Source: a virus. From it: a stretch of 64,000 nucleotides of DNA. Below, in pieces: positions 11,191 through 54,924 of the stretch (its first letter is position 1; the number at the start of each line of letters is the position of its first letter). The position numbers were made by a program, and so were the translations under genes. The stretch is from positions 248,001 through 312,000 of the IMG/VR virus record IMGVR_UViG_3300027708_000012, one strand, 5' to 3'. The notes beneath the pieces were generated by a model. That model did no database searches, was not told the origin of the DNA, and saw only the letters and a list, made by a program, of their open reading frames with translations.

Positions 11191-12603
11191 TTATAGTGCG
11201 TAACGATCACTCATTACAGTCTTCAGCATGATGCCTTCTGGAGTGAACTGATCCAAATCAGCGGCTAGCAAGCTAGTCATGATTGATGGACTGAATCCAC
11301 TTACCAATGCGACACCACTCTTGTCTGCCTTAACAGGTACGTTGTCTGAACTGTTTAGGTTCCAGAAAACAATCTGTGGCACAGTGTATCCTGCATCTGC
11401 AAACTTGCGTTCGATCATTTGCATTGCTGTGTCATCGTAATGAGCACATTGGTTAAACTGCATGTCTGACAAGATTAGCAACATGCCAGGCATGTCGCTA
11501 GCTGGTACTGAACCCTTAACCGCAACGTCTAGGATCTTGTCCATAGCCGCATGCAAGTTAGTGCTCATGTCCCAATCGCTACGAGACATTTGAGTAACCT
11601 TTTCAACAATGTTACCCTTTAGAGTAACAAGTTGTGGCTTGTCTGAGAAAGTCAAGAATGTGTCCTTGAACACGCCCTTGTTCTTATCTGCTAGGTACAA
11701 GCCCAAGCTGATTGAAATGTCCATGCAAGTTACATTAGAGTTCTTTCCTGCTGGGCAAGACATAGAACCACTAACGTCTACGATTGGCATGATGCTAGCA
11801 TCTCCAACGTAGTTTGGCAAGCTATCCCATTGTGCGATAACATGACTAGTTTCAGTCATATCCATCTTAGCACGATAGTGCCCAATCACACCCTTCAACA
11901 CATCATGTGGGAAGATTGCGCTGGCGTTAACCTTAACAGTCTTATCACCACTTACCAACTTGGCAACATACTCAGCGAACGCTGGGCTGTGACGGTTGAA
12001 AGCCTTCTTGTAGATTCGAGAAGCTACAGAAGGAACGTGACTGAAGTTGATGTTATCCCAATCTCCTGCACACATTTGGGTTTCAACAACCTTTGTAAGA
12101 GCTACAAGACTCTTACGGTATTGCTTTGGAGTCATGCCAAAGAAGGCACGAACTTCAGCGGCAATTTGCCCCTTACGAGGAGTCCACTTTGCGGCCAAAC
12201 CGTTATTAGCACGTAGGGCATCGCCCAACATGGTATAAGCGGCTGACTTTAGAACTGGGTCTTGGAAGACAAAGATGTCATCCCAACGACCAACTTCTGG
12301 GATCTTCTTTAGAAGAGCCAAAGCGGCGTCTGGGTCACGCTTTTCTAGATGAACTAGAATATCGCGGAACAGTTGACGTTCACCTGCACCACCGCGGACA
12401 TCACGTGCCCATTGTGCGATGCGTAGTGCAACGTCTTGGTTTTCCACATAAGCGGCTGTAAAGTCGCCTGTGATGTCCTTACCACGGCTTGCGCCGATAT
12501 TATAGAACAAGTCAACACAAGCCTTAGCTGTTGACTTACGTGCCTTCATACCGTTTTCGGTACGGGCTTCTTGATTTGCCACTGCATTTACAAATGCGTT
12601 CAT
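11191..12603 (-). CDS. Ro60/TROVE-like (DUF2828-type) vWA protein
   Basis: A 470-residue protein with an N-terminal helical-repeat region (residues about 1-260, containing RDVRGGAGERQLFR and the PEVGRWDD segment) and a C-terminal von Willebrand A domain with the MIDAS motif DVSGS at 276-280. This is the architecture of Ro60/Rsr and DUF2828 proteins. Ro60 orthologues bind Y RNAs and misfolded RNAs, while for DUF2828 the function is not established. It has its own promoter (12869-12897). Its leader carries copy 1 of a three-copy hairpin element directly before AAAGGAAA, and it ends at a strong terminator. RNA binding is inference from architecture. Confidence 0.75.
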   Translation of the reverse strand: MNAFVNAVANQEARTENGMKARKSTAKACVDLFYNIGASRGKDITGDFTAAYVENQDVALRIAQWARDVRGGAGERQLFRDILVHLEKRDPDAALALLKKIPEVGRWDDIFVFQDPVLKSAAYTMLGDALRANNGLAAKWTPRKGQIAAEVRAFFGMTPKQYRKSLVALTKVVETQMCAGDWDNINFSHVPSVASRIYKKAFNRHSPAFAEYVAKLVSGDKTVKVNASAIFPHDVLKGVIGHYRAKMDMTETSHVIAQWDSLPNYVGDASIMPIVDVSGSMSCPAGKNSNVTCMDISISLGLYLADKNKGVFKDTFLTFSDKPQLVTLKGNIVEKVTQMSRSDWDMSTNLHAAMDKILDVAVKGSVPASDMPGMLLILSDMQFNQCAHYDDTAMQMIERKFADAGYTVPQIVFWNLNSSDNVPVKADKSGVALVSGFSPSIMTSLLAADLDQFTPEGIMLKTVMSDRYAL

Positions 12604-24590: not shown

Positions 24591-25142
24591 ATGACAGAAA
24601 AAGTTTATAAATTAAACCTGCCTTCAATTGAAGAAATAATGCTACCTGGAAAATTTCAAGAACTTTTCCCTAGTAATATTTTTCCTAAAAATAATTCTGA
24701 AATGAGTTTGCTTGATCCAAAAACTTACCTTTTACCAGAAAATTTAAAAATTGGTCATTATGATGTTGATCATAGTATTTTATTTCATAAATCTCACGGT
24801 CAAAAAGGACTAATACATAGTGATACAAACGGTATATGGGCAATTAATTATATAGTTGGAGGGTCCGGTATTCTACATTATTATAACCCAGAAGACTTAG
24901 GTCCTCCAAATTCAAAACCAGATCCAACCGGTGTAGTTAGACCCGTTTGGGGGGATACATCAGCTTTACCCATTAAAACATATTTCATGGATCAAGGAGT
25001 GTATCTTGTTTGTACCGAGGATCCACATTTAGCTGTTGGTAATGGGAATAGGTATTCTTTAAGTATACGAGTACATCCAACACAACAGAAATCATGGCAA
25101 AGTGCTGTTGATTTTTTTCGGCCGTTCATTGAATTTTGGTAG
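24591..25142 (+). CDS. 2OG-Fe(II) oxygenase/cupin-like protein
   Basis: A 183-residue protein with His76-x-Asp78 (LIHSDT), His146 (DPHLAV) and Arg154. An ATAAATA late-type motif lies about 20 nt upstream; no Shine-Dalgarno is evident. Its Trp-stop codons (25137-25142) lie antisense to the 3' CCA end of tRNA-Met. Confidence 0.62.
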   Translation: MTEKVYKLNLPSIEEIMLPGKFQELFPSNIFPKNNSEMSLLDPKTYLLPENLKIGHYDVDHSILFHKSHGQKGLIHSDTNGIWAINYIVGGSGILHYYNPEDLGPPNSKPDPTGVVRPVWGDTSALPIKTYFMDQGVYLVCTEDPHLAVGNGNRYSLSIRVHPTQQKSWQSAVDFFRPFIEFW

Positions 25143-25212
25143 TAACGGTCGGACTCGAACCGACGATAAACACCGTATGAAGGTGGTGCATTAGCCACTA
25201 TGCTACGTTACC
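25137..25212 (-). tRNA. tRNA-Met or tRNA-Ile2 (CAT)
   Basis: Loop TTCATAC with CACC/GGTG stem, acceptor GGTAACG/CGTTACT, encoded CCA. A normal first pair (G-U) argues against initiator. Elongator Met and lysidine-modified Ile2 cannot be told apart by eye. Confidence 0.85.
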
Positions 25213-25450
25213 ATAAGGATAACAACTAAGATGCGCCACCATCGTTATTGGCGCCATTCACCTGTTTATACAAGGTCGACCAGGACTCGGTACGTCACTT
25301 GGGATTCATCCAGTTGATACGCCACCTGTATACCTCCACCGTTCGACGGCGATAAGTCGGGAATCGAACCCGCAACCTTTTACTACCTCGGTCCTTCGAA
25401 GAAACCTTATTAGCATGACTTCACTTGCTGACACTTAATTGTTATTCTTA
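25213..25450 (-). ncRNA. structured spacer RNA with tRNA-like T and anticodon arms
   Basis: A 238-nt spacer exactly flush with the CCA of tRNA-Lys(TTT) on one side and G1 of tRNA-Met on the other. Its ends form an 18-bp-class stem (TAAGAATAACAATTAAG with CTTAGTTGTTATCCTTA). Inside lie a T-arm look-alike (25358-25372, GGGTTCGATTCCC core) and a 17-nt anticodon-arm look-alike with loop CTTCGAA (25390-25406, anticodon TCG), but no matching acceptor. It is either a degenerate tRNA-Arg or a tRNA-mimicking RNA. Confidence 0.6.
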
Positions 25451-25526
25451 TGGTAGGACTGCCCGGACTCGAACCGGGAATTGACGGATTAAAAGTCCGC
25501 TGTGATTACCATTTCACCACAATCCC
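25451..25526 (-). tRNA. tRNA-Lys(TTT)
   Basis: GCGGA/TCCGT anticodon stem, loop CTTTTAA, GGTTCGAGTCC T arm and encoded CCA. Confidence 0.93.
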
Positions 25527-25688: not shown

Positions 25689-25718
25689 GTCGTTCTCCTT
25701 TGAACATTAATTAAAAAA

Positions 25719-25783
25719 ACAGGATGCATTTTTACTGGTTAGATTAAAAGTCTAGTGTAATAAATTTGCTGTTAGCATCCTAA
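25719..25783 (-). repeat. hairpin element, copy 3
   Basis: Stem GGATGC/GCATCC (25722-25727 with 25775-25780) with conserved TAACAGCAAATTTATT and AAAAATG segments. It starts 3 nt after the CCA of the UAU tRNA. The change to G-C at the fifth stem position is compensatory relative to copy 2. Confidence 0.6.
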
Positions 25784-27651: not shown

Positions 27652-27737
27652 TGGTGGAGTATCCTGGGATCGAACCAGGCGTGCCATTACGACGGCGGAT
27701 TTACAGTCCACTGCATCACCATTGATGCTTCTACTCC
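27652..27737 (-). tRNA. tRNA-Tyr(GTA)
   Basis: Type II tRNA with long variable arm; GTGGA/TCCGC anticodon stem, loop CTGTAAA, encoded CCA. Confidence 0.93.
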
Positions 27738-35019: not shown

Positions 35020-35048
35020 ATTATACACTCAATATTTAAACAAGTCAA
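35020..35048 (-). promoter_or_regulatory. sigma70-type promoter
   Basis: TTGACT (35048-35043), 17-nt spacer, TATAAT (35025-35020), just downstream of the tmRNA terminator, driving the helicase operon. Confidence 0.85.
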
Positions 35049-35051
35049 CCA

Positions 35052-35076
35052 TAAAGAAACCCGCCGAAGCGGGTTC
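35052..35076 (-). terminator. tmRNA terminator
   Basis: AACCCGC-TTCG-GCGGGTT followed by TCTTT on the minus strand; stable tetraloop hairpin at the 3' end of the tmRNA transcript. Confidence 0.85.
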
Positions 35077-35079
35077 TAC

Positions 35080-35455
35080 TATTTTTGGTGACAAAGCATA
35101 GTTGCTTCGCGAGGGCAGTTTTTTAGGCTGCTAATGCAAATTCTGCATCATTGGCAGAAGCCAATGTTACTGGAACTTGAAAATACTCGAATGTAGATGT
35201 TTTAGCATTTACTTTAATTTGCTTGATTTACAGTCATCGCCTACTGAGTTGCCGTCTTCAATATCTAACCCCGTCGAAACCATGGCAGGCCCATCATAAA
35301 CACACTCAAATCTGAAAGGTGTCGCCTGTGACGCCTTGTGTTTATAACACCACCACTCGGGACTCAAACCCGCATGTGTTTATGGTGGACCTGGCGGGAG
35401 TCGAACCCGCGTCCGAGATTCCTTCTATCCAAAGGAATTACAACTATTTCATTTA
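35080..35455 (-). ncRNA. ssrA: circularly permuted tmRNA (two-piece)
   Basis: The acceptor piece comes first on the minus strand: GGACGCGGGTTCGACTCC T arm and CAGGTCC-A-CCA ending at 35383. After a 90-nt intervening segment (35293-35382) the other half begins at 35292 with GGGCCTG, which pairs with CAGGTCC, then the diagnostic GGTTTCGACGGGG. The tag reading frame follows (35206-35123). The intervening segment is closed by a 10-bp stem at the processed ends and holds a second T-arm-like sequence (35358-35373). The permuted order matches alpha- and some betaproteobacterial ssrA genes. Confidence 0.92.
35123..35206 (-). CDS. tmRNA proteolysis tag reading frame
   Basis: From the likely Ala resume codon (GCT, after AGTAAAT) the frame encodes a 27-residue tag beginning AKTSTFEYF and ending ANDAEFALAA-stop. 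The LAA terminus is a ClpXP/ClpAP degron. The exact resume codon is inferred. Confidence 0.8.
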   Translation of the reverse strand, partial: AKTSTFEYFQVPVTLASANDAEFALAA

Positions 35456-35461
35456 ACCCAA

Positions 35462-35665
35462 TTACTTGGGTTGAATATTTGCTGCCTGCAAGCCTTTTTG
35501 ACCTTGTACCACATCAAATGTCACTGATTGATTCTCTTGCAGAACTTTGAATCCTGATGTTTGAATCGCTGAGTAGTGTGCGAAAAGATCCTCGCCGCCG
35601 CCGTCTGGAGTAATAAACCCAAAACCTTTGGTTTCATTAAACCATTTTACTTTACCTGTTGCCAT
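35462..35665 (-). CDS. cold-shock-domain protein
   Basis: A 67-residue CspA-type protein with RNP1 KGFGFI and RNP2-like DLFAHYSAI. It binds single-stranded nucleic acid and melts RNA structure. Its stop lies 6 nt before the tmRNA acceptor piece, so the two are probably co-transcribed. TATAAT-like and GATAAATA-like boxes lie upstream near 35680-35712. Confidence 0.92.
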
Positions 35666-53016: not shown

Positions 53017-54924
53017 TTACTTTTTGTCAGTAGGGTCAACCTCTGTGAAAGCCGCATTAACTGACTGGCCTTCTTCAGGTTGTACTGGTGCTGATTGCGC
53101 TGCACTTTCTGCAGCTTGCTTCTTGGCCATAACTGGACCTGCTGCCTCAAAAAATGTTTCAACTGATTTTTGAATAACATCTTTGTCGTCCCCTGCGCAA
53201 GCAGTTTCTACTGCTTTAACAGCATCGTCAAACTTAGTCTTTTCTTCTTCAGTCAATTGATCTTTGTATGTATCATAGTCTTTCTTGATACTGTGTGTAG
53301 TACCTTCAGCATTGTTACGTGCTGTGATTAATTCTGCTTGTTTCTTATCTGCTTCGGCATTTTCCTCAGCTTCTTGAACCATGCGTTTGATCTCAGCTTC
53401 TGTCAATCCGCTATCTGACTTGATAGTGATTTTGTTTTCTTTGCCGGTCTTTTTATCCCTGGCACTTACATTTAAAATACCGTTTGCATCGATATCTAAT
53501 GTAACTTCAATCTGTGGCATGCCACGTGGTGCAGGATCAATACCTTCCAAGTTAAACTCGCCAAGCGATTTATTGTACTTGAATAAGTCACGTTCGCCCT
53601 GAGCAACCTTAATAGTTACTGCTGGCTGATTGTCATCTGCTGTACTAAATGTTTGGCTATGTTTGGTCGGGATAGTTGTGTTTTTAGCAATCAGCTTGGT
53701 AAACACACCGCCCATTGTTTCAATACCTAGTGTCAATGGAGTAACGTCCAACAACAATACGTCTGTCTTGTCGCCAGCTAGAACAGCGCCTTGTACTGCG
53801 GCACCAGCGGCAACTGCTTCGTCTGGGTTAACGTCTTTACGTGGAGCCTTACCAAACAGTTTCTCAACTGCTTCTTGTACTTTAGGCATACGTGTTTGAC
53901 CACCAACTAGAATAACTTCGTCGATGTCTGCGGCGCTAACTTTAGCATCTGCCATAGCAACTTTACATGGCTCAATTGAACGCTGGATCAGTCCGTCTAC
54001 CATTGCTTCAAACTTAGCACGGCTGATAGTTACATTCATGTGCTTAGGACCGTTTGCATCTGCTGTAATGTAAGGCAAGTTAACACTTGTACTTGCGGCT
54101 GTAGATAATTCAATCTTGGCTTTTTCAGCAGACTCTTTCAAACGTTGTAATGCAAGAACGTCTTGCTTCAAATCAACTCCGTTGTCTTTCTTGAACTCGT
54201 CTACCAAATAGTCCATGATAGCTTGGTCAAAGTCTTCACCGCCTAGGAATGTATCGCCGTTTGTTGACAATACTTCAATTTGCTTGTCGCCATCAATGTT
54301 AGCGATTTCAATGATTGAAATATCAAATGTACCACCACCCAAGTCATAGACTGCAATCTTGCGATCTTTCTTGTCTGCTTTGTCAACACCATAAGCCAAT
54401 GCGGCCGCTGTCGGCTCGTTGATAATACGTAGAACTTCTAAGCCTGCAATACGTCCGGCATCTTTAGTAGCTTGACGCTGGCTATCGTTGAAGTAAGCTG
54501 GAACTGTAATAACAGCTTGGGTCACTGTTGTACCTAAATAGTCTTCAGCAGTTTTTTTCATTTTGCGAAGTACTTCAGCTGATACTTGCTGTGGTGCAAG
54601 TTTTTCGCCGTTTGCTTCGATCCAAGCATCACCGTTGTCTGCTTTAATAATGCTGTAGGGCATCAAGTCAATATCTTTTTGCACAGCAGCTTCGTCAAAC
54701 TTGCGACCAATAAGGCGCTTGCTGGCGTAAATTGTATTTTTTGGGTTTGTGACTGCTTGTCGTTTTGCTGTTGCACCAACTAGGATTTCGTCCTTTGTAT
54801 ATGCAATGATTGATGGTGTTGTTCTTGCGCCTTCGCTATTTTCAATAACTTTTGCTACTCCATTTTCTAGGATAGCTACGCAACTGTTTGTTGTACCTAA
54901 ATCGATACCGATGATTTTACTCAT
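53017..54924 (-). CDS. dnaK: Hsp70 chaperone DnaK
   Basis: A 635-residue, apparently complete DnaK. N-terminal [14 protein letters not shown], then [18 protein letters not shown] and the substrate domain with [25 protein letters not shown]-driven folding of nascent or stressed proteins. Closely resembles bacterial DnaK throughout, suggesting transfer from a host. A late-type CATAAATA lies about 80 nt upstream and GGAG precedes the ATG. Confidence 0.97.

Follow-up and report, generated by a model that had tools for sequence, protein, structure and literature searches.

The locus raises the question of what a short spacer, fitted exactly between two tRNA genes of a phage, encodes. The window analyzed here is a stretch of 64,000 nucleotides (positions 248001-312000) of a 345,369-base IMG/VR phage record, in which ARAGORN identifies 28 tRNAs in a minus-strand array. 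Read on that strand, the first base of the 238-nt spacer follows the CCA of tRNA-Lys, and its last base precedes the first G of tRNA-Met. A sequence-only reading had already described this flush placement, which the ARAGORN ends of both tRNAs confirm; the strand, left unstated there, is the minus strand (Table 1). A plus-strand reading, which also gives a good fold, was rejected because the minus strand is where the tRNAs and every relative place the RNA. Neither ARAGORN nor RF00005 calls a tRNA over the spacer, and no Rfam 15 family matches 25213-25450.

Table 1. Spacer RNA, its elements and adjoining tRNAs in the window, with GOLLD copies found alongside the spacer RNA in other phage sequences
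Feature	Position	Strand	Basis
Whole RNA, 238 nt, tRNA-flush spacer element	25213..25450	minus	Covariance model R1 match 25220-25443, E=5e-50
tRNA-Lys(ttt)	25451..25526	minus	ARAGORN; directly upstream, CCA end abuts RNA
tRNA-Met(cat)	25137..25212	minus	ARAGORN; directly downstream of RNA
Closing stem P1, 5' strand UAAGAAUAACAAUUAAG	25434..25450	minus	16/17 pairs; covaries
Closing stem P1, 3' strand CUUAGUUGUUAUCCUUA	25214..25230	minus	Covaries in relatives
P2 5' strand GUCA, long-range	25429..25432	minus	Columns 17-20/164-167 paired 56/56; core C-G/U-A covariation
P2 3' strand UGAC	25294..25297	minus	Columns 17-20/164-167 pairing
P3 5' strand, long-range	25417..25419	minus	Columns 31-33/149-151
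P3 3' strand	25308..25310	minus	Columns 31-33/149-151
P4 hairpin GGUUUC-UUCGAA-GGACC, bulged stem, loop 25395-25400	25390..25406	minus	5/5 pairs with compensatory change
P5 T-arm, UUCGAUU loop (family mostly UUCRANN)	25357..25373	minus	Stem covaries; T-loop rule in most rows
P8 hairpin CCUG..CAGG	25261..25284	minus	Stem covaries
P8 self-complementary loop GGUCGACC, proposed homotypic kissing loop	25274..25281	minus	Palindrome kept
P9 hairpin GGCGCC-AAUAACGAUGGU-GGCGC	25233..25255	minus	100% of cells paired; 4/5 pairs with double changes
GOLLD with spacer RNA	L011 2633-3098, L016 3512-3976, L096 1-108		
GOLLD with spacer RNA	Records G001-G007, G009, G011, G013, G014		

Other features of the surrounding region deserve mention. 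The spacer ahead of tRNA-Lys(ctt) (25713-25780, minus strand) contains an AGGAUGC...GCAUCCU hairpin followed by a U run, and downstream of this terminator-like element stand an RBS-like AAAGGAG and a tiny ORF (ATG AAA CGT GCT AAA CGT TAG). The hairpin may separate two tRNA transcripts. A weak tRNA at 27655-27737 (minus strand), scored at 33 bits by Rfam and missed by ARAGORN, ends in CCACCA. The phage also carries a tmRNA gene at 35032-35497 (minus strand) that matches RF04321 (permuted; 125.9 bits) and RF01850 (beta_tmRNA; 106 bits), and that ARAGORN reports as tmRNA* with a tag ending in AEFALAA. Permuted tmRNA matches recur in other phages with the spacer RNA (L011 and L040). Finally, an Hsp70/DnaK protein is encoded at 53017-54924 (minus strand; E=5e-255).

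The spacer RNA recurs in IMG/VR, where well over 100 phage contigs contain it. Scanning viral contigs for exact copies of its 17-nt hairpin returned 114 loci, where chance would give a number on the order of ten by our own estimate from the collection size, and the same flanking domain accompanies the hairpin in 114 of 114. Further members were gained by masking the hairpin or by searching with the 3' motif. Six hits (L127, L130, L157, L180, L196, and L201) were rejected as coding sequence. The loci yielded 189 units, 150 of them distinct and 97 below 92% identity, of which about 93 are real; L085_-5343 and L197_+10932 were left out as spurious, and the type-2 units L066_-1023 and L080_-7122 are mis-anchored copies. 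Members measure ~200-245 nt. A covariance model of the family (R1), which covers the type-1 3' domain best, detects a single strong copy per record in 20 of 21 whole phage records, the 345-kb record of the window included. Outside IMG/VR the picture is sparse: a pattern scan of bacteria and archaea (one genome per species, 84,980 species) found two contigs only, of 3 and 4.9 kb, both from metagenome bins. Homologs were absent from cultured phages (INPHARED, blastn sensitivity), a search through neighboring proteins found no relatives, and the element has no Rfam match in 16 other members. The open-access literature holds no earlier description of such an RNA; priority is uncertain, subscription journals and bioRxiv being largely uncovered. 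A divergent subfamily (L135, L142, L144, L163, L187, and L200) carries, where other members have UUCGAA, a palindromic loop centered on GGCC, and its T-arm region differs as well.

The association with tRNAs is consistent in orientation, with all 846 tRNAs found within ~1.5 kb of 95 units lying on the strand of the RNA. Sixty of the roughly 93 non-redundant members directly follow a tRNA CCA. In 60 units the CCA ends 11-18 nt upstream of a conserved GUYAGC, a distance that matches the P1 5' strand in length, and the RNA therefore starts directly after the CCA. Flush contact with tRNAs on both sides is seen in 37 units. About a third of the members lack an ARAGORN-called tRNA immediately upstream; several other units follow the CCA ends of tRNAs that ARAGORN missed. 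The upstream tRNAs represent 19 isotypes, which, given the flush CCA, describes a cassette set beside many tRNAs with its place relative to their ends kept. These cassettes adjoin different tRNAs and swap 3' domains. The earlier proposal that ordinary tRNA-processing enzymes release the spacer fits such placement. Embedded in tRNA operons, the cassette would be co-transcribed with the tRNAs, and the enzymes that mature its neighbors would also make its ends. Judging from position, the 5' end would be cut by tRNA 3' end enzymes and the 3' end by RNase P as it removes the leader of the next tRNA.

Folded alone, the spacer of the window is unexceptional (z = -1.29, with 20 of 200 shuffles as good), as it might be if a chance fold had arisen in random intergenic sequence or in a degenerate tRNA. 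Proof of a fold beyond chance comes from covariation in relatives. A custom R-scape-like test, which uses a tree-based null, returns 14 pairs at E=0.00. With few exceptions these are Watson-Crick, and they fall in P1, P4, P5, the hairpin after P5, P8, P9, and the long-range helix P2. From an alignment of 56 diverse members, RNAalifold predicts a structure of 37 pairs, and compensatory changes are seen in 25 of these. In the named 40-pair structure, 97.2% of cells are paired, compared with 82.2% after shuffling and no more than 47% after a slide of 1-3 columns. Since part of the structure was derived from this very alignment, the slid control is generous to it; the unguided tree-based test is unaffected. 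Double changes occur in 27 of the 40 pairs, and the covariation score is 0.438 versus 0.162 for the control. These results prove that the fold is conserved across relatives. Together with the wide conservation of the element, they refute folding by chance, the probability of which we regard as practically nil.

The comparative evidence shows that the predicted fold is multi-branched, with P1 as closure, long-range P2 and P3, a T-loop arm, and hairpins exposing self-complementary loops. The stem and arms picked out from the single sequence were checked for conservation in relatives, and both are conserved. The ends, described as forming about 18 pairs, form 16 of 17 pairs with one A.C mismatch, and the stem covaries. 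The T-arm look-alike at 25373-25357 is likewise present; its stem covaries and its loop follows the UUCRA rule. The 17-nt hairpin GGUUUCUUCGAAGGACC (25406-25390) exists as well, but it is no anticodon arm: it is a bulged hairpin with a C-G-closed UUCGAA hexaloop. The 7-nt loop CTTCGAA would need a pair between columns 49 and 57, which fails in 10 of 56 rows; the closing pair of P4 (columns 50-57) is formed in 56 of 56, as C-G or G-C.

Stem and arms had also suggested a bacterial Y RNA, with a Ro60-like gene in the same window. Such a phage Y RNA would bind a Ro60-like protein through its closing stem, and its tRNA-like domain would tether an effector such as PNPase. The stem joining the two ends and the T-loop arm agree with this idea and recall YrlA (RF02553), whose ends form a stem and which has a T-loop arm (PMC8394870). 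Encoded 12.6 kb away, moreover, is a DUF2828+DUF7788 protein in which DVSGS, a metal-site motif of vWA type, is conserved. However, this is the very gene taken for Ro60-like, and its profile is DUF2828+DUF7788 with no TROVE; a TROVE gene occurs in 0 of 21 phage records (G000 and 20 related ones). DUF2828 is found in 3 of 20 RNA carriers, some of whose records are possibly fragments. Carriers of 340-374 kb lack it, and one record that has it gave no hit for the RNA. The YrlA model gives no match over 25213-25450 even at E<=5, and the spacer RNA differs from YrlA in having no D-arm or acceptor mimic and no Ro60/TROVE partner in the 21 phage records; its supposed anticodon loop is the hexaloop of P4. 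The original interpretation holds in that the RNA is defined and structured, with a stem that seals it and a true T-loop arm; the link to Y RNAs and Ro60 is unsupported, and we give it a very slim chance.

The DUF2828+DUF7788 gene itself (11191-12603, minus strand) has 252 close relatives in viral contigs. A Ro60-like shape is plausible for its predicted product, which has no PDB sequence match and an AlphaFold model of poor quality (pLDDT 45).

The loops of the RNA point in another direction. A 6-nt palindrome occupies the P8 loop in 84 of 86 members (84 of 88 units, two of the four without it being spurious), and in 60 it reaches 8 nt; 23% would be expected from the same letters shuffled. 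About ten hexamer sequences are used across the family, most of them extended to 8-nt palindromes, and the loop types include CUCGAG, GCCGGC, CCCGGG, UCCGGA, GUCGAC, CAGCUG, GUGCAC, CCUAGG, and GCUAGC. Two members have an imperfect palindrome, namely UCCGGG, in which wobble pairing is possible, and GUCGCC. On a tree built without the P8 loop columns, parsimony assigns ~39 changes to the hexamer. Few column pairs anywhere in the alignment covary as strongly as 169-174 and 170-173. The latter two alternate between C-G and U-A and enclose two bases only, which means that they have to pair across separate molecules. As duplexes, the 8-nt P8 palindromes have energies of -11 to -18 kcal/mol.

A scan of all columns finds palindromes in most members at two places only, the P8 loop and the UUCGAA loop (each in 77 of 84 members), and the next best place reaches 24. 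The P4 loop reads UUCGAA in 56 of 56 alignment rows. In four divergent members it is swapped for UGGCCA, another palindrome, and in two for CGGCCA. Alternative 3' domains likewise retain palindromes, with CGGCCG, ACCGGCCGGU or GCUAGC in apparent hairpin loops. Because the P8 palindromes switch sequence and stay self-complementary, they would act as homotypic kissing loops and thereby form homo-oligomers. We strongly infer that the P8 palindrome pairs with the P8 loop of a second copy. With moderate confidence, we infer that the UUCGAA loop also pairs with its like; here the case rests on palindromy and one swap, the loop being almost invariant. Palindrome exchange is likewise the argument for symmetric quaternary kissing loops in OLE and GOLLD (Nature 2025, PMC12286853), and compared with those RNAs, the exchange in the spacer RNA spans many more sequences.

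Palindromes could also act as DNA, serving as sites for dimeric proteins or for recombination that shuffles the cassette and the tRNAs, with the RNA incidental. Cassettes beside different tRNAs and exchanged 3' domains would suit such sites. The palindromes lie, however, exactly in hairpin loops with covarying stems. Their sequence changes freely while self-complementarity stays, unlike a protein site, and the strand is fixed relative to the tRNAs. The chance that they are DNA sites is therefore slim.

A further possibility is a stable monomeric RNA of the tRNA operon, either a decoy for tRNA-modifying enzymes or for host defenses that cut tRNAs, or a cis element in the processing of the tRNA transcript, with palindromes that contribute only to packing or stability. 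Its T-loop arm, its tRNA-flush ends, the single copy per tRNA array, and the precedent of rnaC and rnaD in the T4 tRNA operon would all be in keeping with a monomer. Yet this leaves unexplained the self-complementarity of two loops, which is the best-kept property of the RNA, and we consider a monomer unlikely.

The spacer thus probably represents a new, compact family of phage RNAs derived from tRNA operons, most likely homo-oligomeric scaffolds or particles. In infected cells, such a scaffold would assemble on the same principle as GOLLD and ROOL. One symmetric kissing loop would produce dimers, and two different symmetric contacts per molecule would produce either chains or closed assemblies, namely rings or shells of even copy number with dihedral symmetry. 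More tentatively, and with somewhat less than even confidence, we propose that the ~230-nt RNA cut out by the tRNA machinery forms a protein-free, closed, even-numbered particle through two palindromic kissing loops, composed mainly of copies from its own phage. The lineage-changed P8 loop, next to a near-invariant UUCGAA, would account for this last property.

If confirmed, the particle would be a natural cage or ring of very small size made of RNA alone. It would also be a second such system, independent of GOLLD and often found next to it. The natural multimers built only of RNA (GOLLD, ROOL, and OLE) had their structures reported in 2025, and what they do is poorly understood. The family would be widespread and compact, with very strong sequence evidence for self-assembly, and easy to synthesize and image. 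Palindrome swaps would offer a clear genetic handle on assembly, and lineage-specific palindromes pose a testable question of self-recognition among related phages. More generally, annotation overlooks structured RNAs located in the spacers of phage tRNA arrays.

Among known phage RNAs, phi29 pRNA oligomerizes by loop-loop pairing; it pairs two different loops and serves the packaging motor. The spacer RNA has no Rfam match to it. The best precedent for stable RNAs from phage tRNA operons is T4 rnaC/rnaD (species 1 and 2 RNAs), which are small and packed against tRNA genes, and of which rnaC has a T-arm-like hairpin. They differ in length (119-139 nt), and by model R1 they are not homologous to the spacer RNA: its best match in the T4 tRNA region, at 10 bits, is T-arm-sized only.

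ROOL and GOLLD offer the closest parallel in kind. ROOL occurs in phages and prophages near tRNA islands and forms an RNA-only nanocage with conserved kissing loops (PMC12286853), but at ~660 nt it differs in sequence and fold. GOLLD (RF02032) is phage-borne and located in tRNA islands; its homo-oligomer, a 14-mer of D7 symmetry where ROOL is likewise a closed shell, has symmetric kissing loops, some of them palindrome-swapped (PMC12286853). GOLLD is much larger than the spacer RNA, has another fold, and occupies separate loci in the same genomes. Neither the spacer RNA nor 16 other members match GOLLD or ROOL in Rfam. GOLLD was not found in the phage of the window; it co-occurs in 11 of 20 spacer-RNA carriers, often 1-4 kb away on the same strand. 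The features shared with both systems are a phage-borne location in tRNA islands and self-complementary loops with covarying palindromes.
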